In this document: positions 24,174-52,721 of the stretch, in pieces | Position numbering within the stretch: the stretch's first letter is position 1 | How the letters are laid out: each line of letters opens with the position of its first letter | NCBI GenBank assembly: GCA_030673895.1 | Contig: JAUTCR010000004.1 | Span: 1 to 64,000 of the forward strand | Source: Verrucomicrobiota bacterium JB023 | Lineage (GTDB): Bacteria > Verrucomicrobiota > Verrucomicrobiia > Verrucomicrobiales > Akkermansiaceae | Length of the DNA: 64,000 bases | Direction: 5' to 3' | Translations under genes and position numbers: made by a program | Notes under the pieces: model-generated | The model's database searches: none | Seen by the model: the letters and a program-made list of their open reading frames with translations, nothing else | Told to the model about the DNA's origin: nothing

Positions 24174-24542
24174 ATGCTGCAAATCGTCTTCAACGAAATT
24201 TCCGCCGCCGAGATTTCCGAGCTTGATACTCTTTCCCAGTTGAAGGTTTTCGATGAGTTTCAAGTCACTCACGACGATCTGGAAAACCTGGATGGCGACC
24301 GCTTCAATAAGATGACTCATGAAGGGAAGACCCTTTACCGTTTCCGGTCGGAGGACTGGCGGTTCTATTTCGAGGTCGACCGCGATACCGTTATCGTCCA
24401 CCGCGTCTTGCACAAGGGCAGCTTCAAGGACTTTCTCTTCCGCTCCAATCTTGCTGATGAGGATAAGGAGTTGGAGGGCAACAAGCACTTCTGGAAGCTC
24501 ATCGACGAGGGACGGAACGCGAAGCGTAATCAATCCGCCTAG
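24174..24542 (+). CDS. RelE/ParE-like protein without visible antitoxin
   Basis: A 122-residue protein. TLYRFRSEDWRFYFEVDRDTVIVHRVLHKG has the strand order and Arg-rich pattern of the RelE/ParE toxin fold, preceded by a longer helical N-terminal part. Such proteins are often annotated as cytotoxic translational repressors. No antitoxin gene is next to it: upstream is the SRP RNA and downstream a convergent gene overlaps its stop by 4 bp. A housekeeping role in this phylum is therefore as likely as a toxin role. The start at ATG 24174, 20 bases after the SRP RNA, suggests possible co-transcription. Confidence 0.68.
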   Translation: MLQIVFNEISAAEISELDTLSQLKVFDEFQVTHDDLENLDGDRFNKMTHEGKTLYRFRSEDWRFYFEVDRDTVIVHRVLHKGSFKDFLFRSNLADEDKELEGNKHFWKLIDEGRNAKRNQSA

Positions 24543-27500
24543 AGTTCGCTGAGATAGGCCACCAAATCGGCCAGATCTTGCGGGGCAATCACCCCGGCGA
24601 AGGAGGGCATGGCGGGCTCATACCCCTCGGTGATGACCTCATTGGGCTTGAGAATGGAGGCCAGGAGGTAATCTTCTCCCTTTTGTCCGACGCCGTTCAA
24701 TGGCGGGCCGGTCAGCCTTTCCCCCTGTAGAGAGTGGCAGCCGATGCAGCCGGTACTGATAAAGACTTCTCGACCCTTGCGGGCATCACCGGGCTGCAGC
24801 GAGGGGGCCTCTTCCTCATTCTGCTTCAGACTGGCAAGATCCGCGCTGCTGGCGGGCGCCAGGTGACTGGTCGGCGCGAAGAGGTGGAGAGCAACGGTCT
24901 CATTGGTCTCGGCATCGTGATAGGTGAGCTGGAGGTCGAGGATGTCGGACCGGTGCAGGGAGTCGAAGGCCAGCTCAAGCGATTGCCGGTCGGAGGAAAG
25001 GGTGAAAGAGGAAGGCTGCAGTTGATGCTCGCCCGGCTCGCCGTCCCAACGGAAATGGCCTGAACCATAGCTGGAGGTGCGTTCGATATTGAAGAGCCGA
25101 AGCGCGGGTTCCGCAGGGAGGAGGGTCTCCTCGGGGCTCAAGGGCCTGGTGAAGGTCAAGGTGATGGCCTTGGGGGTGATTGCCAAGGTGGAAGGTGCCG
25201 GCAATCGGTTTGCTTGCTCAATGGAAGCCAGGCCCATGAGCTCGGGGGTCGTCGGCTTGTAGCCGGAAATCCCGAGCCCGGTGACGTAGAGCCGCCCGCT
25301 CTGCGGATGCACGGCCCCATTGAGAGCTGGGAAGTCAAGCTGCAGGGGGAGTTGCCAAGCGAAGGCGGGTGCTTGGTCCGGGGTTTCGAGGGCGAAGAGT
25401 CGCCCGTTCCAAGAGAAATGAATGAAGCGCTCGGCGAGGTCCGGGAAGGCATCTTCTCCCAAGACCTCGAACCCTGCGGCGGAGCGATTGGCTTGATAGG
25501 GGAACCAGACCAGAGGCGTGGCAGGTGTCTCGCGGGCGCGGAAGTTCGTCTGCTCGAATCCGAGATAGGGACTTCCGGAGATGAGATGGATGGGGGTGCT
25601 GGGGATGAAGTGGCCCTGCTGGTCCGAGGCGTAGACCGCCCCCGCGCCGTCGAGGCCGACGTAGGGAAGCCGCAAGCCATCAGCGAGGACCTCGGCGGTG
25701 TCCGCTTGGGGGTCGATACGCAGGATGGTGCCCCGGTGGCGCGACATCTCGGAGTTGTGACCACTTTTCAGATTATTAAGCCCTCCCTTGGCTACGTAGA
25801 AGGCCCCGTCCTCGCCGCGCTCGAACGACATCGCGTAGTCTCTTGTCATCAAGGTTTGTAGGAAGAGATCGCTGGTATTCCAGAAGCTGTCGTAGTGCCC
25901 GTCACCGTTGTCATCACGGAGTTCAGTGATCTGGTCCCGCCCAAGTGTGTAAACGCGGTCCTCCGCATCGACCTCAATGTTCGTGGTCTCAAAGAGGCCG
26001 GTGGCGACGCGAGTCCATGAGGATTCGGCGTTCTCAATACCCTCAATCCGCCAGACATCGCCATCGAGAGTGATTAGCAAAGCCGTGCCGTCGGAGAGGA
26101 ATTCCAGGTCAACCGGGCGGATGGTGCGTTGGTCAGCGTTTTCCTGCGGTAGGGTGAGGTTGCGGACGGCGAAGGGGCCCTGCTGCCGGGCGGATGAATT
26201 CTCGACGGTGTAGGTCCGTGGGAAAACGGGCTCGGCGGGAGCGCTGTCGGGGAAGTCGACTTGGGAAGGAGCCGAGGCCGCGCCGATGGTGATCAGGCGC
26301 TCCTCGGAGGAAGGTTGCAGATAAAGGATGCGGCCTTGGCGGGAATTCTGCCAGCGGGCGCCGGGGCCACGGAGAGTTTCAGCGCCTTCGTGCACGTGCA
26401 GGACCAGAGGCTTCGTTGCTGGTCCGACTCTGATTTGTCGCAGGAGGCCTCCCTCGTCGTCGAGGCGGAGGACTTCGTTGATTGCGGTGCCTTCCACCTC
26501 ATAGTGCAGCACTGGCGTTCTCCCCGAGAGGGTGATGCCGCGCCATTGGCCGTAGCTCCGGGGGAGGGGGCCGACCGCGCTTTCGCCGTCAGTGAGATGA
26601 TTCTCGCGAGGATCCGCGGGGAGCGTCCGACCGGCGGCGATGCCCGGCTGGAGTGGCGACTCGTGGAGGACGGTGCCGCGAAGATAGGGCGGGCGGGACG
26701 CCTTGGCCTTCGCTGCCGGATAGGAGACCGAGGCCATGCTATCGTAGGTCAGCGGGGCTTCTCCCGGCGGAGCTATCCAGACGACTGACCAGCGGAGGAG
26801 ATCGGGGTCGAAGCAGGCCCATTGTCCTTGCCCAAGGGGGATGAGGACGCCCCGGCGGGTGACGTTGTCACTGCCCTCAATGACCAGTGCGCTGCGGAGG
26901 AAGGGGGTTTCATTCTCTAGGAAGGCGCCTGCCGGCAGGGGGGCTCCGGGCTGCTTCACCTCCGCGGTGGAGGCATGGATTTCGAACCAGTCGAGCCGGA
27001 TGCAGTCCTTGCTGCCCTTGGGCTGCGAGGGAGCCGCGAATCCGATGGCGGTGACTTTCTGAAAGTTTGGCTGAGCCTTTGGGCCCAGCGTGACGGATTT
27101 CGAAGAGAGGCGATGCCAAGAACCATCGCCGAGAAGGAGGGTTTGCTCATTCCACTCCTCGCCTTGCGCGGCGGGGGTCTTTTGCGCGAACCACTTGCCC
27201 CCGGACTGCACGGCGAGGTGCAGGGTCGAGCGCCCGAAGTTCTTGCTTTGGAGGACGACCTTGGCCTCAGGGTCGCTTAGGTCGAGAGCGTGTTGGAAGG
27301 GGAAGGCGAGCAGCACCGGGCCTTCGCAGAGACCATTCCATAGGTAATGAGGATCGTTCGGGACCTCGGGGTGGAAGGAGAGCTTCACGTTGGCGGCTCC
27401 GGGCCCGAGGCGCTCGAGGGAGAGAAAGGAGGAAGTGAGATCGTCGCTCGTTGCCGGGATGTGGGCCGGCACTTCGCGGAAGTCCTCGCGGACGACCGGT

Positions 27501-27544
27501 TCGCCCGCAGCGGCAAGGGAGAGGAGGAGGAAGAGCAGTCTCAT
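24539..27544 (-). CDS. Large secreted PVC-type protein: beta-propeller plus cytochrome c domain
   Basis: 1001 residues. A signal peptide (MRLLFLLLSLAAAG) is followed by a beta-sandwich-like region (about 20-190), a middle domain (about 200-450) of the kind called DUF6797 in PVC bacteria, and a propeller (about 460-770) resembling sugar or sorbosone dehydrogenases (VDLEFLSDGTALLITLDGDVWRI). A beta domain follows (about 790-895). The C-terminal domain binds one c-type heme: CIGCH at 933-937, with Met979 in EPAMPSF as likely axial ligand. A periplasmic electron-transferring oxidoreductase, perhaps acting on carbohydrate, is the best inference. The stop overlaps that of the RelE-like gene by 4 bp. 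Confidence 0.82.
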   Translation of the reverse strand: MRLLFLLLSLAAAGEPVVREDFREVPAHIPATSDDLTSSFLSLERLGPGAANVKLSFHPEVPNDPHYLWNGLCEGPVLLAFPFQHALDLSDPEAKVVLQSKNFGRSTLHLAVQSGGKWFAQKTPAAQGEEWNEQTLLLGDGSWHRLSSKSVTLGPKAQPNFQKVTAIGFAAPSQPKGSKDCIRLDWFEIHASTAEVKQPGAPLPAGAFLENETPFLRSALVIEGSDNVTRRGVLIPLGQGQWACFDPDLLRWSVVWIAPPGEAPLTYDSMASVSYPAAKAKASRPPYLRGTVLHESPLQPGIAAGRTLPADPRENHLTDGESAVGPLPRSYGQWRGITLSGRTPVLHYEVEGTAINEVLRLDDEGGLLRQIRVGPATKPLVLHVHEGAETLRGPGARWQNSRQGRILYLQPSSEERLITIGAASAPSQVDFPDSAPAEPVFPRTYTVENSSARQQGPFAVRNLTLPQENADQRTIRPVDLEFLSDGTALLITLDGDVWRIEGIENAESSWTRVATGLFETTNIEVDAEDRVYTLGRDQITELRDDNGDGHYDSFWNTSDLFLQTLMTRDYAMSFERGEDGAFYVAKGGLNNLKSGHNSEMSRHRGTILRIDPQADTAEVLADGLRLPYVGLDGAGAVYASDQQGHFIPSTPIHLISGSPYLGFEQTNFRARETPATPLVWFPYQANRSAAGFEVLGEDAFPDLAERFIHFSWNGRLFALETPDQAPAFAWQLPLQLDFPALNGAVHPQSGRLYVTGLGISGYKPTTPELMGLASIEQANRLPAPSTLAITPKAITLTFTRPLSPEETLLPAEPALRLFNIERTSSYGSGHFRWDGEPGEHQLQPSSFTLSSDRQSLELAFDSLHRSDILDLQLTYHDAETNETVALHLFAPTSHLAPASSADLASLKQNEEEAPSLQPGDARKGREVFISTGCIGCHSLQGERLTGPPLNGVGQKGEDYLLASILKPNEVITEGYEPAMPSFAGVIAPQDLADLVAYLSEL

Positions 27545-35221: not shown

Positions 35222-36031
35222 GTGTCTCTCACATACGAATGCGGTCTCATCACAGGGGCTTCAGCAGGTCTCGGCGAAGAATTCGCCCGCCAGCTGGCCC
35301 TTTTTTTGCAAAAAGTCGTCCTCGTGGCTCGTCGTCGCGATCGGCTGGAAAAGCTTGCCACAGAACTCGAAGCGAGCGGCATCGACGTGCGCGTGATCGC
35401 CGCGGACTTATCAAGCAGCGAAGAGCGCGAACGTCTCGCGCGCGAAGTCGAGCAAGCGGGGTGGACGGTCGACCTCCTCGTCAACAACGCCGGCTTGGGT
35501 GACTACGGAGACTTCGCGGGCTCGGAGTGGGCACGTAACCAGGCGATGCTTCAGGTCAATATCGAGGCGCTGACCCATCTCACCCATCTCTTCCTCCCCG
35601 GTATGGTGGCCGCTCAGCGAGGGGGAATCATCAACGTCAGCTCACTGGCTAGTAAGCTCCCTATCCCCGACTTCGCCGTCTATGCCGCGACCAAAGCCTA
35701 CGTCAGCAGCTTCTCGGAGGCGCTGCGCCTCGAAGTGCGCGAGCTAGGGATCGAGGTGGTCGCTGTATGCCCCGGCCCCGTGAAGACGGAGTTCGGCTCA
35801 GTGGCCATTCGCCAAGAGAACGATTCGCGTGAGCCGGGAGGCCGTGCCGCCTTTTACGTGGAGAAAGCCAAAGTGGTTTCCGACGCTCTGCGTAGTCTCG
35901 CGCGTGGTCGCCCGCGCATCTACCCCGGCTTGCAGGTCACTCTGGTCGCAGCGGGGATTTCCCTTCTCCCCATGGCCCTACTTCGCCTTATCATGGGCTC
36001 TCGCCCCCGGAGGCAGAAACTTTTGGAATAA
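35222..36031 (+). CDS. Short-chain dehydrogenase/reductase
   Basis: A 269-residue classical SDR. The NAD(P) loop is TGASAGLG (11-18), with ARRRDR suggesting NADPH preference. NNAG lies at 88-91 and the catalytic residues are Ser140 or Ser141, Tyr154 and Lys158 (YAATK). The C-terminal stretch VTLVAAGISLLPMALLRLIMG is hydrophobic and may anchor it to the membrane, as in the DltE/YqjQ-like subgroup. The substrate is unknown. GTG 35222 start; the GH75-like gene begins four bases after the stop. Confidence 0.9.
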   Translation: MSLTYECGLITGASAGLGEEFARQLALFLQKVVLVARRRDRLEKLATELEASGIDVRVIAADLSSSEERERLAREVEQAGWTVDLLVNNAGLGDYGDFAGSEWARNQAMLQVNIEALTHLTHLFLPGMVAAQRGGIINVSSLASKLPIPDFAVYAATKAYVSSFSEALRLEVRELGIEVVAVCPGPVKTEFGSVAIRQENDSREPGGRAAFYVEKAKVVSDALRSLARGRPRIYPGLQVTLVAAGISLLPMALLRLIMGSRPRRQKLLE

Positions 36032-36035
36032 TCTT

Positions 36036-37346
36036 ATGCCGAAGCACTCCTTACCGCTGAAACTGTGGCCATCCCTCTGCGTTCTGCTCGGGATCGTGGT
36101 CCTGATCCTCGTCGTGCGTGGACCCCGCACCGAAGTGCTCGAGAAGATCAAAGAGGTGCCTGTCATCCAAGAAAAGGTCGTCAAAGAGGTGGTCGAGAAG
36201 ATCGTCGAAGTCGAAAAACCGGATCCCATCCTGGGCCTCTCCGGCGAGACTGACCTGCAGCGAACTTCGAGAGGCTTTACCTTTCGCTCCGAAGTCGAGG
36301 TTGAGAACGGCACCCTCGCCAGCTTGGAAAGAAAGAGCCGTGGTTCCTATATCGCGGACTACCGGTTGAGGGTGAAGGTGCCCAAGGCGGCGGCGAGCTT
36401 GGACGAGCTGGAGAGCTCGACCCCTGGGCTTGCCAGCCTCTTCCCAGGGCTGGGAGGCATGGTGGCGAAGGCGTCCGTCTCGGACTTCTACGAGAAGCTC
36501 TACGCCAACAAGATCAAGCGCCTGGAGGCCAATGCGGAACAGATCGGGAGCTTGCTGACCAAGCACAACTTCTTCGACTGCCAGACGATGCTCAATCTCA
36601 CGGCGGAGAATGGCCGCAAGGTCTTCCTGATGCAGGGCGACATGGATGTGGTGAGTGATGGCTCCGATGGAGACCGCCTGCCCGAGATGCCGGATGAAAT
36701 CGTCAACTCGACCTACTACCAGCCGACCACGAGCTATGGCTGGGCCAAGGTGGGGGATACGCCGAACCCGCTCATTGCGGGCTATGAAAAGCGCATCCGG
36801 GTCGCTCGGGGGGAGCTTGCCGACCCTTCGGTCTCCGCCGAGCGGAAAACTTGGGTGAGGGGCCGCATCAACAATCTCCTGGAGCCGGGCATCGAAGAGA
36901 TGAAGCGCCGCAGTTTCCTCATTGCGGAATACGATCCTTTCATCGTTATCCCGATGGATATCATCGTGAATCGGCAGGATCCGTGGGCTCCCCATGTGGG
37001 TGACTATGCGGTCGTGATCCATGACGGCGTCGTCTATCCGGCCATTTGTGGCGATGCGGGTCCGACCTTCAAGGTAGGCGAAGCCTCATTGCGGATGGCT
37101 CGCCAAATCGACGACCGCTCCAGTCCCTACCGTCGCCCGGTCAGTGACCTCACGGTGACCTACATTTGCTTCCCGGGAACCGCGGAGAAACCTCACCGGC
37201 CACCCGATTACGAATTCTGGCGGAGCCGTTGCCTGGAGCTGCTGGAAGAGATGGGGGGCGTCAACAAAGAGCTTTTCATCTGGGAAGATTTGCTGGCTTC
37301 GGACGAAGAGTCAGGCGAAGACGATACGTCGCCTGCCTCGGAGTGA
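36036..37346 (+). CDS. GH75-like (fungal-type chitosanase family) secreted or anchored protein
   Basis: 436 residues. An N-terminal transmembrane or signal-anchor helix (LWPSLCVLLGIVVLILVV) is followed by a Val/Lys/Glu stalk repeating VxEKVVKEVVEKIVEVEK (about 32-62). The C-terminal 250 residues carry the GH75 landmarks: SDGSDGDRLPEMPD, QPTTSYGWA, VGDYAVVIHDGVVYPAICGD, GPTFKVGEASLRMARQID and LTVTYICFPGTA. GH75 enzymes hydrolyse chitosan endo-fashion. The stalk plus anchor suggests the enzyme is held at the cell envelope. The start is ATG 36036, four bases after the SDR stop; the two are probably one operon. Confidence 0.78.
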   Translation: MPKHSLPLKLWPSLCVLLGIVVLILVVRGPRTEVLEKIKEVPVIQEKVVKEVVEKIVEVEKPDPILGLSGETDLQRTSRGFTFRSEVEVENGTLASLERKSRGSYIADYRLRVKVPKAAASLDELESSTPGLASLFPGLGGMVAKASVSDFYEKLYANKIKRLEANAEQIGSLLTKHNFFDCQTMLNLTAENGRKVFLMQGDMDVVSDGSDGDRLPEMPDEIVNSTYYQPTTSYGWAKVGDTPNPLIAGYEKRIRVARGELADPSVSAERKTWVRGRINNLLEPGIEEMKRRSFLIAEYDPFIVIPMDIIVNRQDPWAPHVGDYAVVIHDGVVYPAICGDAGPTFKVGEASLRMARQIDDRSSPYRRPVSDLTVTYICFPGTAEKPHRPPDYEFWRSRCLELLEEMGGVNKELFIWEDLLASDEESGEDDTSPASE

Positions 37347-37860: not shown

Positions 37861-40800
37861 ATGAAAAAAATGACCCCGCAACAGACTGTTTTCGCTTTGA
37901 TGGCACTGGCTTCCACGCAGGTGGGAGCACAATACACCTACAATGGGAGTGGAAACTGGTCGATGGCCGCCAATTGGTCCCACGCAACCAACGATGGAGA
38001 AGTTCCGGGCACGGATTTGGATGAGCAAGCAGTGATCCCCGGCGGCAGCGTGGTGACCCTGAACTCGACACAACCGAACGTGCGTGCGCTGCGCCTGCAG
38101 GGCGGGAGCGGCACGGCTACCCTGAACATTGAGCCGGGCGCGGATCTTCAATTCACCACCCACAGTTCGTGGGATTCCAGCATCGGACGGGCAGGAGCCG
38201 ACGGCGTTGTGAGCCAGAGTGGGGGGGATATCAGCATCAACTTTCTGGAGCTTGGGCGTGATAACGGAACCACCGGCGAATATTTTCTAAGCGGAGGTTC
38301 ACTTAATATCTCCCGGGGCGGACACTCCGCGACGGGTGGTTCGAGTCTGATCATCGGCACGGCGGATAGCAATGCATCCGGTGGCACCGCGACGGGATTG
38401 TTGGAAATCAGCGGAGGGCAATTCACCACGCGCTCGGGGGTATGGATTGGCGGCACGAGCGGAACCGCGGACGCCACGTTCTCCGTTCTGGGCAGCGGCG
38501 CTTCGGAGATTGGGATTGGGACCACCAACACGGGAACTGACGGCCATTGGACGCTCAACGCGGGAGCGACCCTCGCGGTGGGAGTCGAACTTTCCGGACT
38601 CACCAAAATTTTGGTCGATGACCACGGGAATGGAAACAGCTTCGCTACCTTTGAGGCCGGTTCGCTTCTCGATGTGGATTACTACGGAGACGGGCAAGGT
38701 GGGGGGACGTGGACCGTTCTCGAACTTGAAAATGGTGACATCGTGGATAACGGGCTCGCGTTCGCTCCCGGCGTGGATACGAGCATTTGGTCCTTCCAAG
38801 TCGATAATTCCGGAGCCAATGGGATCTTGACGGTGACGGCTGCGGGCGACCCTCCGGGTATCCTCGGGAATTGGTTCACCATTGAGGCGGAGGATCACTC
38901 CGGCCAATCGGGGACGCGCTTGGAAGACTGCGCCGATACCGGTGGAGGACAGAACGTGGCTTATATTTCCGGGGGAGACTGGTGCCGATACGATGATGTC
39001 ACACTGGGTGACAATGCCTTGCTGAACTTCCGCGTGGCCCGACCGGATGACACCGATGACGGGCGCATTGAGGTGCGTCTGGGTTCGCCCACTGGTACCC
39101 TCATCGGGCAAATCGATGTGCCTGTGACGGGTGGTTGGCAGAGCTGGGAAACTGTTTCGGTGCCCGTTGCCCCGGTCGTGGGGAAGCAGGATATTTATCT
39201 GGTTTTCGTCGAATCGAGCACCACCAATGGCGGCTCGCTGTTCAATCTCAACTGGTGGTCCAAGACGGCGATGGTGGAAGCGGAGGACTTCGACGCGGGT
39301 GCAGGCTATCGATTCGAGACAACTGGAGATGTGGGCGGCGGCCAGAATCTAGGTTGGATCTCGGATGGTGAGTGGATGGAATACACGATCGAGGTGGAGG
39401 AGCCCGGTTTCCACCGGCTTAATTTCAGGGTGGCCGCTCCGGGTTCAGATGGGTCGATTGATATCGTTTCGAACGGACAGACCTTGGGTTCTGTTTCCAT
39501 CGGTGATACGGGAGGCTACCAATCCTGGACCACGGTGAGCACCTTTGTGGAGCTGCCCAATGCGGGCGTCCAGACCTTGCGTCTTGAGTTCGTGGTTCCC
39601 TCGAGCGGTTTCAATCTCAACTGGTTCGCCTATCAGGAAGCTCCGCAGCCGCTGCAAATTGTAGTCGGAAATACGCCAAAGCAGCAGATGCGTTACGGCC
39701 TTGATTACGAGCGACTTTGGTTCTGGCAGGGTAGCAATGCGGTGCGGGATCGATTCGCTCAATGGTCGGTCGACGATTGCGATGTCGATTACATCCGCGT
39801 CGCAATCAATGCCAAATACGAGCTGACGGAGGGAGTTTTCCAGGAAGACGCCTACTTCGACGCCGATGATAGTGAGGGAGGAGGGACCAACAATGACCGC
39901 ATCATCCCGATGATGAGAGACATGCAGGAAGCGAATCCGGACATCAAATTCTTCGCCTCCCCTCGTCCTCTCAACGAGGCCGTCTCGGGCGTCGCATGGC
40001 AGCCCTATCCACAATGGATCACCGGCAGCTCGGGGAGTAACAGCAACTTCAACTTCGATGAGGTCAAGTGCTCGGAGTATTTGCTGCGATACCTCATCCT
40101 GATGAAGCATCATGGCTTTCAGATTTCCTACATGGATCTCACCAACGAGTGGAATCACCTCAATGCGCAGGATGTGCGGGATATCAGTGCGCTATTTGAT
40201 GATTACCTCGACGGAACGAAGCCCGTCATCCATCCCGATTATCCTGATGTGACGCTGACCGCGGAGGATATCCCGCTACTCATTGCCCCCTCGGCATGGA
40301 GTTATTCCCAAGGCAGCTCGTGGATGAATGGGGTCCGCTTCTCTTCCTACCGCCAAGCTCTTGATATTGCCGCTTGCCATAATACGGACAAAGGAGGAAC
40401 TGCACAGGACTTCGCGGATAGCGTCCGGGAGCGCTACGTGGACGACGAGGGTGAACTTCTCTCAGTGCCAGTCCCGGAGATTTGGAACACCGAAGTTCAT
40501 GGATGGAAAAGCACCTCAAATGCGGATGAAGTGCTGACCTTTGCTTACATGATGGAGTGCATTAACGCCGGATTTTCTGGGCTTAGCGGCTGGCTGGCCG
40601 TCGGCTTCAGTAACCAGGGCCACTGCTATATCGTCAATTCGCAACGAAGCGTTAAATATTACATCTTCAAGAAACTGGCCAATACCTCTCACCGGGGATT
40701 CGCGCTGGATGTGAACGAGCCGGATGAGTTCAAGGTCTATTGGGATCCCGATCCGGATCAGCAGGATGCGGACTCGGCTGTCACGGCACTGATTCGCGGA

Positions 40801-41979
40801 AACCTGATGACGGTTTGGACGCTCAATCACTCGAACACCGATCACCTCGTTAACATCATACCGAGCGGCAGGACGATTAGTGACGAGCCGATACGGTTCA
40901 CCCGCTGGAGCCAATACGACGGCCTGGGTGTCGAGGGGGAGACCGGGATGATCGCCAACCCCGGTGACGACTCCTTCTATGCCACCGTGCAGGACAATTC
41001 CGCCTACTGCTTCGAGATTCTACTCGAGCCGGAATCAGTGCCTTATGTGCGGACCGAGGCCGAAGGCTTTCAGACCAGCGATCCCGGCGTGTCTTCAACC
41101 GGTGGCGATACCGGAATCGGCGGAGGAGCGCATCTTGAGGGACTCACGGATGGGTCTTGGACTTCTTATCCTAACGTCGACCTGAGTCACTCTGCTTCGA
41201 TTCGATTGCGGGTGGCAGCCGCTGCCGGCAGCCCCGACGGGTGGATCGAGGTTCGCACGGGCAGCCCGACGGGTCCGAGAATCGGCCGGGTCGCAATACC
41301 CGAGACGGGCGGATGGCAGAATTGGTGGACCGTGGAGACCCCGATTGAGCCTACCCCCGGCACGCATGACCTCTACTTGGTCTACGTGGAGGCAAAATCG
41401 AACGAACAGGGAACGGGTCCGATGTTTAATCTCGATTGGTTTGAGCTCATCCAGACGGAGGCACCCGCTGCGCTAGCGGGAGGGCCAGAAAGTGGGAGTG
41501 CAGTCTCTCTTTCTTGGGACGAAGTTCCGGGAGCGATAGGCTATGTCATCAAGCGTTCGTCGGGAGCAGGCGGTCCTTACTCCGTCGTCGATGATACGCT
41601 TACGGATACGAGCTACATTGACCAGGGACTGACTGCGGGCAGCGCCTATCATTACGTGATTGCCGCGCGTTATGAGAATGGCGCAACGAGCGCCAATTCG
41701 GCTGAGCTCGTCGTGATCCCATCGGACCCAATTACTATCGGAGACCTCGATTTCGGCCTGCCGGCGATGAGCCCGAGTGGCGACCAGGTCAGCATCGAGC
41801 TAGCGAATTCCGAACTCGGCCATCTCTATCAGGGGCAGCAAAAGAAGAACCTGAGCGAGGGCGAATGGAGTGATGTAGGTGACGCCGTGGCAGGAAATGG
41901 TGGGTCCTTGATGTTCGAGTTCCCGGTGGATCCCGGTGACGACAAGTGCTTCTACCGCTTCGTTATTGAGAGGCAATAA
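37861..41979 (+). CDS. Giant secreted glycoside hydrolase with three CBM6 modules and FN3 domain
   Basis: 1372 residues. Order: signal peptide (to about 23); beta-helical passenger-like region with Gly/Ser repeats (about 24-335); CBM6 (about 340-465, starting FTIEAEDHSG); CBM6 (about 470-590, starting AMVEAEDFDAG); a (beta/alpha)8-like catalytic domain (about 605-1050); a third CBM6 (about 1060-1195); fibronectin type III (about 1203-1290); and a short phylum-specific beta domain ending CFYRFVIERQ. TNEWNHLN (Glu763) and IWNTEVHGW (Glu878) look like acid/base and nucleophile of a clan GH-A retaining enzyme. The exact GH family is not recognised; GH30, GH39 or GH86 relatives are candidates. CBM6 modules bind xylan, beta-glucan or agar ends, so a marine polysaccharide is likely. 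Confidence 0.8.
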   Translation: MKKMTPQQTVFALMALASTQVGAQYTYNGSGNWSMAANWSHATNDGEVPGTDLDEQAVIPGGSVVTLNSTQPNVRALRLQGGSGTATLNIEPGADLQFTTHSSWDSSIGRAGADGVVSQSGGDISINFLELGRDNGTTGEYFLSGGSLNISRGGHSATGGSSLIIGTADSNASGGTATGLLEISGGQFTTRSGVWIGGTSGTADATFSVLGSGASEIGIGTTNTGTDGHWTLNAGATLAVGVELSGLTKILVDDHGNGNSFATFEAGSLLDVDYYGDGQGGGTWTVLELENGDIVDNGLAFAPGVDTSIWSFQVDNSGANGILTVTAAGDPPGILGNWFTIEAEDHSGQSGTRLEDCADTGGGQNVAYISGGDWCRYDDVTLGDNALLNFRVARPDDTDDGRIEVRLGSPTGTLIGQIDVPVTGGWQSWETVSVPVAPVVGKQDIYLVFVESSTTNGGSLFNLNWWSKTAMVEAEDFDAGAGYRFETTGDVGGGQNLGWISDGEWMEYTIEVEEPGFHRLNFRVAAPGSDGSIDIVSNGQTLGSVSIGDTGGYQSWTTVSTFVELPNAGVQTLRLEFVVPSSGFNLNWFAYQEAPQPLQIVVGNTPKQQMRYGLDYERLWFWQGSNAVRDRFAQWSVDDCDVDYIRVAINAKYELTEGVFQEDAYFDADDSEGGGTNNDRIIPMMRDMQEANPDIKFFASPRPLNEAVSGVAWQPYPQWITGSSGSNSNFNFDEVKCSEYLLRYLILMKHHGFQISYMDLTNEWNHLNAQDVRDISALFDDYLDGTKPVIHPDYPDVTLTAEDIPLLIAPSAWSYSQGSSWMNGVRFSSYRQALDIAACHNTDKGGTAQDFADSVRERYVDDEGELLSVPVPEIWNTEVHGWKSTSNADEVLTFAYMMECINAGFSGLSGWLAVGFSNQGHCYIVNSQRSVKYYIFKKLANTSHRGFALDVNEPDEFKVYWDPDPDQQDADSAVTALIRGNLMTVWTLNHSNTDHLVNIIPSGRTISDEPIRFTRWSQYDGLGVEGETGMIANPGDDSFYATVQDNSAYCFEILLEPESVPYVRTEAEGFQTSDPGVSSTGGDTGIGGGAHLEGLTDGSWTSYPNVDLSHSASIRLRVAAAAGSPDGWIEVRTGSPTGPRIGRVAIPETGGWQNWWTVETPIEPTPGTHDLYLVYVEAKSNEQGTGPMFNLDWFELIQTEAPAALAGGPESGSAVSLSWDEVPGAIGYVIKRSSGAGGPYSVVDDTLTDTSYIDQGLTAGSAYHYVIAARYENGATSANSAELVVIPSDPITIGDLDFGLPAMSPSGDQVSIELANSELGHLYQGQQKKNLSEGEWSDVGDAVAGNGGSLMFEFPVDPGDDKCFYRFVIERQ

Positions 41980-49645: not shown

Positions 49646-50083
49646 ATGATGCGCATGTTCCGAAGCCTTCTCGCACCGCTCCTTGCCATCCTGTTAGTGA
49701 CCTCCTTCCTGGGTAGTAGCCAGCTCGCTGCTGCTGAGGAACAACCGACGACACTGGTCGTCGTCTGGAGCAGTGGCGACCCGGATGTCGCCCATCGGGT
49801 GGCCCTTATGTATGCGCACGCTGCGAAGACAGCGAATTGGTTCGAGAATGTCCGCCTGATTATTTGGGGGCCGAGTCAGCGTGTTCTCGTGGGGGATAAG
49901 GATCTCAAGGCGAAGATTGCCAAAATGAGGGAGGACGGGGTGATCGTCGAGGCCTGCATTGCTTGCGCGAACTCCTTCGGTATCGCGGAAGAGCTGCGCG
50001 AGCTTGACCTCCCGGTGAAGGGGATGGGCAAGCCGCTCTCCGATTACTTGAAGGATCCGGATTGCTCGGTGATCACCTATTGA
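49646..50083 (+). CDS. Exported DsrE-family protein
   Basis: 145 residues. A signal peptide (MMRMFRSLLAPLLAILLVTSFLG...LAAA) precedes a DsrE/DsrF-like domain: LVVVWSSGDPDVAHRVALMYAHAAKT, NVRLIIWGPSQRVLV, and IVEACIACANSFGI, where conserved cysteines of sulfur-relay relatives would lie. Cytosolic family members carry persulfide sulfur; exported versions are uncharacterised. The start is ATG 49646, with GAGGAAG before it. The stop overlaps the stop of the convergent GH2 gene by 7 bp. Confidence 0.78.
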   Translation: MMRMFRSLLAPLLAILLVTSFLGSSQLAAAEEQPTTLVVVWSSGDPDVAHRVALMYAHAAKTANWFENVRLIIWGPSQRVLVGDKDLKAKIAKMREDGVIVEACIACANSFGIAEELRELDLPVKGMGKPLSDYLKDPDCSVITY

Positions 50084-52449
50084 GTCTGCACCGGAATGAC
50101 GACCGAGGCCTCTGGGAGTCCCTCGGCTTCAAGGGTGACCTTGATCTCTTGATTGCCCTCCGAGGCTTGCACGAGAGCGAGGAGTCGACCAGCGAGAGCC
50201 TTCTTTTCCCGCGACCGGAGAGGGGTGGGATCGTTCTGGTTCCCATTATCAAGGCCCAACAGCTTGCCTGAGCCCGTGATGCGGGCCGCGACCTTGCCGT
50301 CGTAGTGGGGGACCCGGGTGCCATTGGCATCGACAACGGAGATTTCCAGATGTGCCGTTTCTCCAGCCTGCAGTGACTCCCGGTCTGATGAGATCAGGAT
50401 TTGCGCGGGCTCTTCGGCGGTGCGCAGGGTCGTCCGAATGACTTCCTTGCCCCCGCGATACCCGACGGCGATCAGCTCACCAGGTTCGAAGTCGAGACGG
50501 GCCCGGAAGCCCCGGCTATTCTCCTCCATCTCAATCGGTCGATCATTCAAGGTGACCTCGATGCGTTCGCAATTCGTCACGGCGGTGAGCCCGACGTTTT
50601 CTCCCTCTTCCCAGGTCCAATGGGGGCGATGGTGCCACCAGGAGCGGCTCCTGCCTCGCTGGGTGGCAAGGAGGTGAAGGACAGGTTCGTCATTCCACGC
50701 ACTATCGATATAGTAGCCAGAAACTCGTGGGTAGCCGCAGCGATCCCAGAGCCCGGCCTGGCTGCCGTGATTCGGCCAAGTATTCGCCTCGCCGAGAAAG
50801 TCAAACCCAACCCAGAGAAAGAGGCCACTGATGAACTCGTTTGCGGTCACTTCCTCCCAGTTGCCGGGGCCTTTGCCGGTCTCGCTCCCATAGATGAAGC
50901 GACCGGGGAATTGCGCGTGATCTTGCTCGTAGAATTGCTCTTGATAGTTGTAGCCCGCGACATCGAGCATGTCGGCTAGCCCGGTGCCATTGGCCGCAGG
51001 AACATTGGCCAAGGCCATGGTGACTGGTCGGGTGGGGTCATGCTTCTTGACGGTCGCGATCAGGTCGGGAGCGACGGCGGCGAGCCGGGCTGCAGCTGGT
51101 CGGCCCTCGGTGGAGAATTTGGCGAAATCGTTGTCGACGCGGGACTCGGGGTGGACGTAGGGGTCGGTCGGGTAATCGATTTCATTGCCGATGCTCCACA
51201 TGATGATGGAGGGATGATTGCGGTGCTGGCGGATCATGGCCGCCAGGTCGCGGGTAGCCCATTCCTCGAAGTCTTCCGCGTAGCCGAAGCGGCTGGCGCG
51301 CCCCTCGTTGCGGCCCTTGACCCACTTTCGCTTGCCGATCTCCCATTCATCGAACGCCTCATCCATGACTAGGAACCCCATCTGGTCGCAGAGTTCATAA
51401 ATTTCGGGTGCCATCGGGTTGTGACTGCAGCGGATCGCGTTGACTCCGGCCTCCTTGGCGATCTTCAGGCGGCGCGCCCAAACCTCCCGGGGGACGGCGG
51501 CACCAACCACCCCGCCATCATGATGGATGCAGATGCCCTTCATGATCGTATTCTTCCCATTGAGGTAGAAGCCTGTGGAGGGATCGAAGCGCAGGCTGCG
51601 GATGCCGAAGGAAATCTCGCGCGAGTCCACCGTTTCACCACCGATGAGCACCTTGCAGCGGAGGGTGTAGAGGGTGGGCGTGTCAGGAGACCAGAGGCGA
51701 GGCTCGGTCACCTTCTGCCACGTGGTGAAGGTGTGTGTTTCTCCCGGAGAGAGTCTTTGCCGATCATCGGCGGCGGAGAGGATCTCCCCCTCGGGGGAAA
51801 CGGCTTCCGTCACGACGCGGACCCTGGTTGGCTCCTTCAATGTGTTCGTGACCTCGAGACGGCTGCTGATATCGGCGTTCTCGCTGGAGATACGGGGAGT
51901 GGTGATGGCGATGCCATCGGCTGCGAAGTGGACGGGGCCAGTCTGGATGAGGTGCACATTCCGGTAGATGCCGGAGCCGGGGTACCAGCGGGAGTCCGCC
52001 ACGTTCTCCCGCGCCACCTTCACGGTGAGCAGGTTCTCCTCGCCAAACTTGAGATGAGGCGTGAGGTCATACTGAAAGGTCGCGTAGGCCGAGGGGCGGT
52101 GGCCGAGGTGCTCCCCATTGATCCAGACGTCGCTGTGACGTGAGATGCCATCGAAGCGGATCGCATAGCGCTGGCCCTCGCTCCCGGCGGGGAGGGAAAA
52201 GGACTTGCGATACCAGCCGATGCCACCGGGCAAAAAGGCGGTGCCGGAGGCGGCATTCTCGGGGTCAAAGTCAAGCTCTGCCGACCAATCGTGCGGAAGG
52301 GAAAGGCTCCTCCACTCGCTCTCCGGGCTTCCAGTTTGTCCATTGGACAGATCGCCAAGGTGGAATTGCCAATCATCGTTGAAGAGGGTGGTCTCCCGCG
52401 CGGCCAGGCTGACGGCGAGCAGGGCGAAGAGAATGAGTCTGGGAAGCAT
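50077..52449 (-). CDS. Secreted glycoside hydrolase family 2 protein (beta-galactosidase-like)
   Basis: 790 residues with a signal peptide (MLPRLILFALLAVSLA). Domain order is jelly-roll (about 20-180, starting FNDDWQFHLGD), immunoglobulin-like (about 190-290), (beta/alpha)8 barrel (about 295-590) and C-terminal beta domains. The acid/base is Glu423 in MWSIGNEID and the nucleophile Glu523 in YGSETGKG. GH2 enzymes of this layout include beta-galactosidases, beta-glucuronidases and exo-enzymes on algal or plant polysaccharides. Export supports polysaccharide degradation rather than lactose use. The start is ATG 52449; the longer frame adds 23 residues ahead of the signal peptide. Confidence 0.9.
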   Translation of the reverse strand: MLPRLILFALLAVSLAARETTLFNDDWQFHLGDLSNGQTGSPESEWRSLSLPHDWSAELDFDPENAASGTAFLPGGIGWYRKSFSLPAGSEGQRYAIRFDGISRHSDVWINGEHLGHRPSAYATFQYDLTPHLKFGEENLLTVKVARENVADSRWYPGSGIYRNVHLIQTGPVHFAADGIAITTPRISSENADISSRLEVTNTLKEPTRVRVVTEAVSPEGEILSAADDRQRLSPGETHTFTTWQKVTEPRLWSPDTPTLYTLRCKVLIGGETVDSREISFGIRSLRFDPSTGFYLNGKNTIMKGICIHHDGGVVGAAVPREVWARRLKIAKEAGVNAIRCSHNPMAPEIYELCDQMGFLVMDEAFDEWEIGKRKWVKGRNEGRASRFGYAEDFEEWATRDLAAMIRQHRNHPSIIMWSIGNEIDYPTDPYVHPESRVDNDFAKFSTEGRPAAARLAAVAPDLIATVKKHDPTRPVTMALANVPAANGTGLADMLDVAGYNYQEQFYEQDHAQFPGRFIYGSETGKGPGNWEEVTANEFISGLFLWVGFDFLGEANTWPNHGSQAGLWDRCGYPRVSGYYIDSAWNDEPVLHLLATQRGRSRSWWHHRPHWTWEEGENVGLTAVTNCERIEVTLNDRPIEMEENSRGFRARLDFEPGELIAVGYRGGKEVIRTTLRTAEEPAQILISSDRESLQAGETAHLEISVVDANGTRVPHYDGKVAARITGSGKLLGLDNGNQNDPTPLRSREKKALAGRLLALVQASEGNQEIKVTLEAEGLPEASVVIPVQTQ

Positions 52450-52721
52450 GCTGGCCCTACGTCTTGCGACTCCGCCGCTTTTCGGGCTGTCGACCGAATT
52501 TCGATAAAACCGATTCACTGGCTCTCAAAATGGAGGACAATGTCATTGCAATGTCGTCTCCGGTGCGCGGGCGCGGAGAATTAACGCAACTAAATTGAAA
52601 AAGGTGGGCTCGAGCGGCATTAGGAAACTTCACGATGCGGGCTCATCTTTCCCTGAACTTCTCCTTGCGGTGTGCGCTGTCGTGGGGATTTTTGCTCCCG
52701 CCCCCAAGAAGATGATTTGTG

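Follow-up and report, generated by a model that had tools for sequence, protein, structure and literature searches.

A predicted clan GH-A enzyme of Verrucomicrobiota remotely related to GH30, and the lyase-like protein that recurs with it

The 64,000-nucleotide stretch of Verrucomicrobiota bacterium JB023 analysed here (contig JAUTCR010000004.1, positions 1 to 64,000; hereafter the window) carries at 37861..41979, on the + strand, a single open reading frame (ORF) with an ATG start, encoding a protein of 1372 residues with an N-terminal signal peptide apparent by inspection. A preliminary description, drawn up from the sequence, saw in it a glycosidase-like central domain between carbohydrate-binding modules and could place that domain in no named family. 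To which lineage does this enzyme belong, and with what partner and on what substrate does it act? The protein is, in our view, likely to be a retaining beta-glycosidase of glycoside hydrolase (GH) clan GH-A, secreted and probably endo-acting, that belongs to a GH30-related lineage and is predicted to act beside a lyase-like protein. The genomes that carry it are rich in sulfatases, and much machinery of this kind has yet to be assigned a substrate. The recurrence of a GH30-like enzyme together with a lyase-like protein that has similar modules offers a two-protein handle for substrate finding, and the family models tested (Pfam and NCBIfam) have a gap where this lineage falls.

The catalytic domain and its relation to GH30

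The predicted catalytic domain, a GH30-like barrel with a nine-strand side domain delimited by alignment, profile and model, spans residues 597-1062 (466 residues; 39649..41046, + strand). Two glutamates 115 residues apart had been named in the preliminary description as catalytic candidates, and their positions were correct: Glu763 is the E of LTNEWN (codon 40147..40149, + strand) and Glu878 the E of IWNTEVHGW (codon 40492..40494, + strand). Among 36 non-redundant domain sequences, each with at least 250 matched profile positions, both residues are kept in every aligned relative (36/36), at identities as low as 17%, and they stand among the only six columns that are identical across all rows. 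Judged from these aligned sequences, the conservation of both glutamates is beyond chance.

Two structure models were predicted, the first from an 11-row alignment (predicted local distance difference test, pLDDT, 79.5) and the second from a 35-row alignment (pLDDT 89.7; predicted template modelling score, pTM, 0.91). In the second, the central domain forms an eight-strand barrel with a nine-strand side domain; Glu763 (domain residue 167) lies directly after barrel strand 4 and Glu878 (domain residue 282) at the end of strand 7, the placement that had been expected of a clan GH-A barrel. By our own count in this model, a strand at 2-13 comes ahead of the eight barrel strands and eight more follow them. 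PMC11058611 describes GH30 enzymes as having a side domain of nine strands attached to the barrel, with one such strand ahead of the barrel in GH30 group 2, and the predicted central domain has this layout. In profile-profile alignment, Glu763 is paired with the glutamate of the GH30 NEP motif and Glu878 with that of the HSEG motif. Fold and alignment suggest a double displacement in which Glu763 would be the acid/base and Glu878 the nucleophile. The enzyme would probably cut in endo fashion.

No Pfam family was found for residues 597-1062, save a chance-level row for DUF7457 (0.56), and NCBIfam gave a weak, partial match to GH30_3 endo-1,6-beta-glucanase (cut-off 700 bits; 19.3 with the full sequence and 21.6 with the domain). 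This NCBIfam model, NF053856, is weakly matched by 9 of the 11 members of the first alignment (best 8.4e-6), over residues 47-168 of the window's domain. The Pfam GH30 model, PF02055, matched neither the window protein nor the 11 or 35 members, nor anything else in the window's genome, which is weak evidence alone because the Bacillus subtilis control appears at E<=0.01 and not at E<=1e-5. The Pfam GH59 model, PF02057, is touched by 3/11 members (best 5.4e-5) and 8/35 (best 1.1e-6), the window member itself having no match at E 0.01, and Glyco_hydro_cc by one member of 35 (0.0026). In general library scans, GH39 and GH86 were not among the Pfam and NCBIfam matches of the window protein or its relatives.

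Structural comparison places the domain more closely. The search of a predicted model proposed in the preliminary description was run, and VIA-align puts xylan-active GH30 enzymes first, headed by 4fmv (Z 33.5, root-mean-square deviation 2.8, 361 aligned residues, 13% identity); such enzymes fill ranks 1-25 (Z 33.5 to 30.1, identity 11-16%), and other GH30 enzymes and GH59 come next. The family names in this list were taken in part from titles; 1nof, still titled GH5, is presumably a GH30 enzyme. The GH30_3 endo-1,6-beta-glucanase BT3312 (5ngk), the enzyme of the weakly matched NF053856, also resembles the model (Z 26.4), although it scores below the xylan-active enzymes. In a Foldseek search of viral structures, the best rows were phage proteins labelled GH5.

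Profiles point the same way when they are broad enough. Searched against the PDB, the full-length protein matched through its CBM6 and FN3 parts alone and found no GH30 structure, and the 11-row profile returned three chance rows, none of them GH30. The 35-row profile gave 27 rows at E up to 10 (best 1.2e-16), of which the top 19 either carry the GH30 name or are enzymes that an accepted GH30 control also found. That control, a protein from Pontiellaceae bacterium B1224, retrieved 28 PDB rows (5.9e-81 to 1.2e-4) in a single-sequence search. Because GH30 structures are reached by the 35-row profile, though neither by the full-length protein nor by the profile of 11 rows, and the control reaches them directly, we regard the domain as belonging to a GH30-related lineage outside the models tested. 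With the two outer groups of relatives (groups 2 and 3, below) removed, a 21-row profile gave six PDB rows (best 0.0014), five of them GH30 when 2wnw is counted, which we take to be a GH30 enzyme. Compared profile to profile, the lineage and three accepted GH30 proteins from its phylum score 98.1% over 332 columns, with both glutamates aligned. By the same kind of comparison, the close relatives (group 1) are much nearer to group 2 (E 1.6e-39) and to group 3 (1.3e-18) than to a set of five accepted GH30 proteins from the phylum (8.6e-9). In a 38-row tree, a long branch separates the three accepted GH30 rows from the others, the root being for drawing only and long branches being flagged.

On these sequence comparisons, the domain is a remote relative of GH30 beyond the Pfam and NCBIfam models tested, and its lineage is further from GH30 structures than the single accepted GH30 control. 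The observation in the preliminary description is confirmed, and its interpretation, correct on essentials, is supported: the clan GH-A-like fold and the two glutamates hold in the predicted model, the absence of a named family holds for Pfam and NCBIfam, with the closer placement now given, and a strong hit to a characterised GH30, GH39 or GH86 subfamily, which would have made the enzyme an ordinary one, did not appear with either the whole protein or the profile of 11 rows.

Relatives and the lyase-like protein

Close copies of the catalytic domain, 48-84% identical to the window's, occur both within the family to which the window belongs and in a second class of its phylum, whose carriers include Pontiellaceae bacteria B1224 and B12219. 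These make up group 1, with 16 members in 11 genomes of two classes of one phylum. Five intermediates, four from family f39 and the copy at L018, show 28-32% identity. Group 2 has eleven members, all with Lys ahead of the predicted acid/base (KEW; 11/11), and MAM, F5/8 or bacterial Ig modules in 6 of the 7 members scanned. Group 3 has three (L103:9009-10289, L104:8502-9782 and L090:1204-2478), from two genomes of the window's family and with the motifs TNEP and QSEMHCGHS, and one further sequence (L087) is partial. The place of group 3 in the lineage is unsure because its profile-profile score with group 2 (1.9e-8) is no closer than that of group 1 with GH30. We considered whether group 3 might be ordinary GH30 that drives the hits of the 35-row profile, but one member alone gave a single weak GH30 row (0.016); one group-2 member alone gave six chance rows.

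The genome searches covered the window's own phylum, and one wider scan found three loci. With the 11-row alignment, members of any group were matched in 10/387, 10/337 and 12/195 genomes (E<=0.01, 0.001 and 0.001, respectively; genomes overlap between searches). No plasmid record matched the window domain or a group-2 domain, and peptide patterns found none in viral contigs. In the tree, the window gene falls in a clade (L001, L098, L096, L009; 100/100) with one copy from its own family (82% identity) and two from the other class (78% and 84%), a grouping which, on sequence grounds, suggests horizontal transfer. A literature search by titles and first lines, with subscription journals and preprints outside its scope, gave no description of the lineage among the matches listed.

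The window's genome holds a group-2 relative as well (L062:7602-10376, contig C58), a 925-residue protein with two MAM stretches and a catalytic part that has no Pfam match. It carries the Lys (KEW) ahead of the predicted acid/base, a position held by Asn in GH30 and in group 1.

A protein matching PF05426 (alginate lyase superfamily) and bearing CBM6 adjoins the enzyme at L096, L052 and L056; by similarity, a lyase-like relative adjoins it at L058 and two pieces lie about 3 kb off at L057. The protein thus stands beside or near the enzyme at 5 of 16 loci, the L056 copy being divergent (25% identity). Its accessory modules resemble those of the enzyme, and the enzyme's N-terminal module is also borne by a lyase-like open frame of the window's genome. 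Against the PDB the lyase-like protein found nothing, and its profile found one partial row at 0.02. Members of this family lie at L117:1501-2904 (contig C66 of the window's genome), L096:2859-6722, L052:3973-7965 and L058:11704-15534.

The two proteins also occur together across genomes. A lyase-like copy was counted as close at E<=1e-100, and the enzyme as belonging to group 1 at E<=1e-150. On this basis the 195 genomes of the window's family include seven with the enzyme, four with a close lyase-like copy and four with both (hypergeometric 6e-7), and among 337 genomes of the other class four have the enzyme and the same four the close copy (2e-9); these hypergeometric values are not true probabilities because the genomes are related. 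Over the 532 genomes searched, a close lyase-like copy was found in eight, and all eight have the enzyme.

Identity and substrate

The reading that we prefer, a GH30-related glycosidase acting beside the lyase-like protein, would have the three CBM6 modules hold the enzyme to its polysaccharide, while the alginate-lyase-superfamily protein, carrying the same kind of accessory modules, would act jointly with it, probably on a marine polysaccharide that contains both uronic acid and sulfate. Neighbours of the relatives were scanned at 10 loci (29 proteins), and sulfatases occur at five of these (L055, L052, L095, L101 and L059). Sulfatase neighbours alone prove little because sulfatases are common in these genomes: there are 56 matches in the window's genome and at least 107 in two others, and across eight genomes the number runs from 39 to at least 107 in seven, with one match in the eighth. 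PMC10880615 states that sulfated polysaccharides, carrageenan and fucoidan among them, are degraded by two Pontiella species described earlier; in the same source the growth tests of P. agarivorans are positive for agar, carrageenan and xylan and negative for fucoidan, which the species description lists.

More tentatively, and with rather less confidence than the points above, group 1 (NEW), group 2 (KEW) and the intermediates may form a new GH family beside GH30, with group 1 paired with a new family of the alginate lyase superfamily, the two together opening a sulfated, uronate-bearing marine polysaccharide.

Several observations weigh against the reading that we prefer. The strength of the 35-row result is partly owed to groups 2 and 3, and the 21-row profile goes no lower than the value given above, with its best stretch in the side domain; the GH30 control is one protein. 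The lyase-like relative in the window's genome sits on another contig (49% identity), and the lyase-like assignment is itself weak (best PF05426 E 5.4e-10 where scanned). The E cut-offs for co-occurrence were picked after the lists had been seen, and the carriers are related to one another; 3 of the 11 carrier genomes have no close lyase-like copy, and at E<=1e-10 a lyase-like protein is found in 5/7 carriers and in 42/195 genomes of the family (p 0.006). Most genes around the enzyme in the window are housekeeping ones, and the substrate idea leans on the neighbours of the relatives.

The alternative that survives best, though we think it rather unlikely, is that the enzyme is a diverged xylanase of GH30 group 2 whose substrate is xylan from algae or plants, in which case the lineage would be one more GH30 subfamily. 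The best structural and profile matches are indeed xylan-active GH30 enzymes (4fmv, XynC and RcXyn30A, 8vg9), which share the barrel, the nine-strand side domain with one strand ahead of the barrel, as we count them in the model, and the glutamates after strands 4 and 7 over a whole-length match; CBM6 modules are present, and GH43 genes stand at 2 of the 10 scanned loci. However, neither the full-length protein nor the 11-row profile of the window lineage retrieves these enzymes, and the loop after strand 8 is unlike theirs, the Arg-Arg of the RcXyn30A loop, which includes what we take to be the glucuronoxylan-binding Arg, standing opposite other residues in the alignment. Structural identity over the VIA rows is 11-18%, whereas PMC8453022 gives under about 28% between GH30 subfamilies and an average of 24.5% between GH30_7 and GH30_8, figures obtained by another measure that allow a rough comparison.

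A place nearer to GH59, of the beta-galactosidase type, is improbable. It would account for the Pfam GH59 matches noted above, where Pfam GH30 has none, and galactocerebrosidase (3zr5) has a similar fold; yet its structural score is lower (Z 27.3, as opposed to 33.5 for GH30), GH59 is absent from the 27 PDB rows of the 35-row profile, and the window member lacks the Pfam match. Least probable of all, and very much so, is that catalysis has been lost, leaving the domain a role in binding or as a scaffold, as the want of a recorded activity for any member and window neighbours that do not point to a degradation locus might suggest, since both glutamates belong to the six columns identical in all 36 rows.

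Modules and neighbourhood of the gene

Around the catalytic domain of the proposed GH30-related glycosidase, all on the + strand, lie an N-terminal module (about residues 24-335; 37930..38865), recognised by similarity to the modules of relatives, without a Pfam family and put down in the preliminary description as a putative beta-helical region; two CBM6 modules, a (residues 342-467; 38884..39261; Pfam CBM_6) and b (about residues 472-592; 39274..39636; Pfam CBM_6, PDB search and similarity to relatives); and, beyond the domain, CBM6 module c (about residues 1063-1196; 41047..41448; Pfam CBM_6 and similarity to relatives), an FN3-like module (residues 1209-1282; 41485..41706) and a C-terminal module (about residues 1287-1372; 41719..41976) seen by similarity, which nine of the remaining 15 close relatives share. 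The three CBM6 modules of the preliminary description are borne out by three stretches matching Pfam CBM_6 (283.6 bits, cut-off 28.9; E 2.3e-85). Its FN3 domain scores 18.5 bits, under the Pfam cut-off of 25, yet matches the solved Fn3-like protein 3mpc at E 2.5e-14.

When the modules of the window protein serve as the reference (similarity at 1e-3, window protein included), the N-terminal module is found in 12/16 close members in one to three copies, CBM6 in 15/16 (again with one to three copies), FN3 in 11/16 and the C-terminal module in 10/16; counts made in this way overlook divergent modules, as at L058, where CBM6 is seen by Pfam. The architecture had been called unusual; it is, as far as these comparisons go, a family pattern partly common to close relatives. 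A promoter scan gave none, and terminator-like sites number 6, with 4.5 in shuffles.

The GH75-like and GH2 neighbours that had been reported are both there, the first upstream (35829-37343; E 6.6e-10) and the second downstream (50077-52518), with two genes for penicillin-binding proteins and one for a subtilase between it and the enzyme gene. Among 20 ORFs scanned in the window, no degradation cluster was seen. The neighbours scanned around relatives include no GH75-like gene and one GH2 gene; their glycosidases are GH95, GH43 and GH2 at L059, GH29 and GH97 at L053, and GH43 at L095. The draft genome that contains the window comprises 77 contigs and 4.03 Mb. Elsewhere in the window, at 24539-27544 on the - strand, a 1001-residue protein combines DUF6797 with a C-terminal cytochrome c domain.

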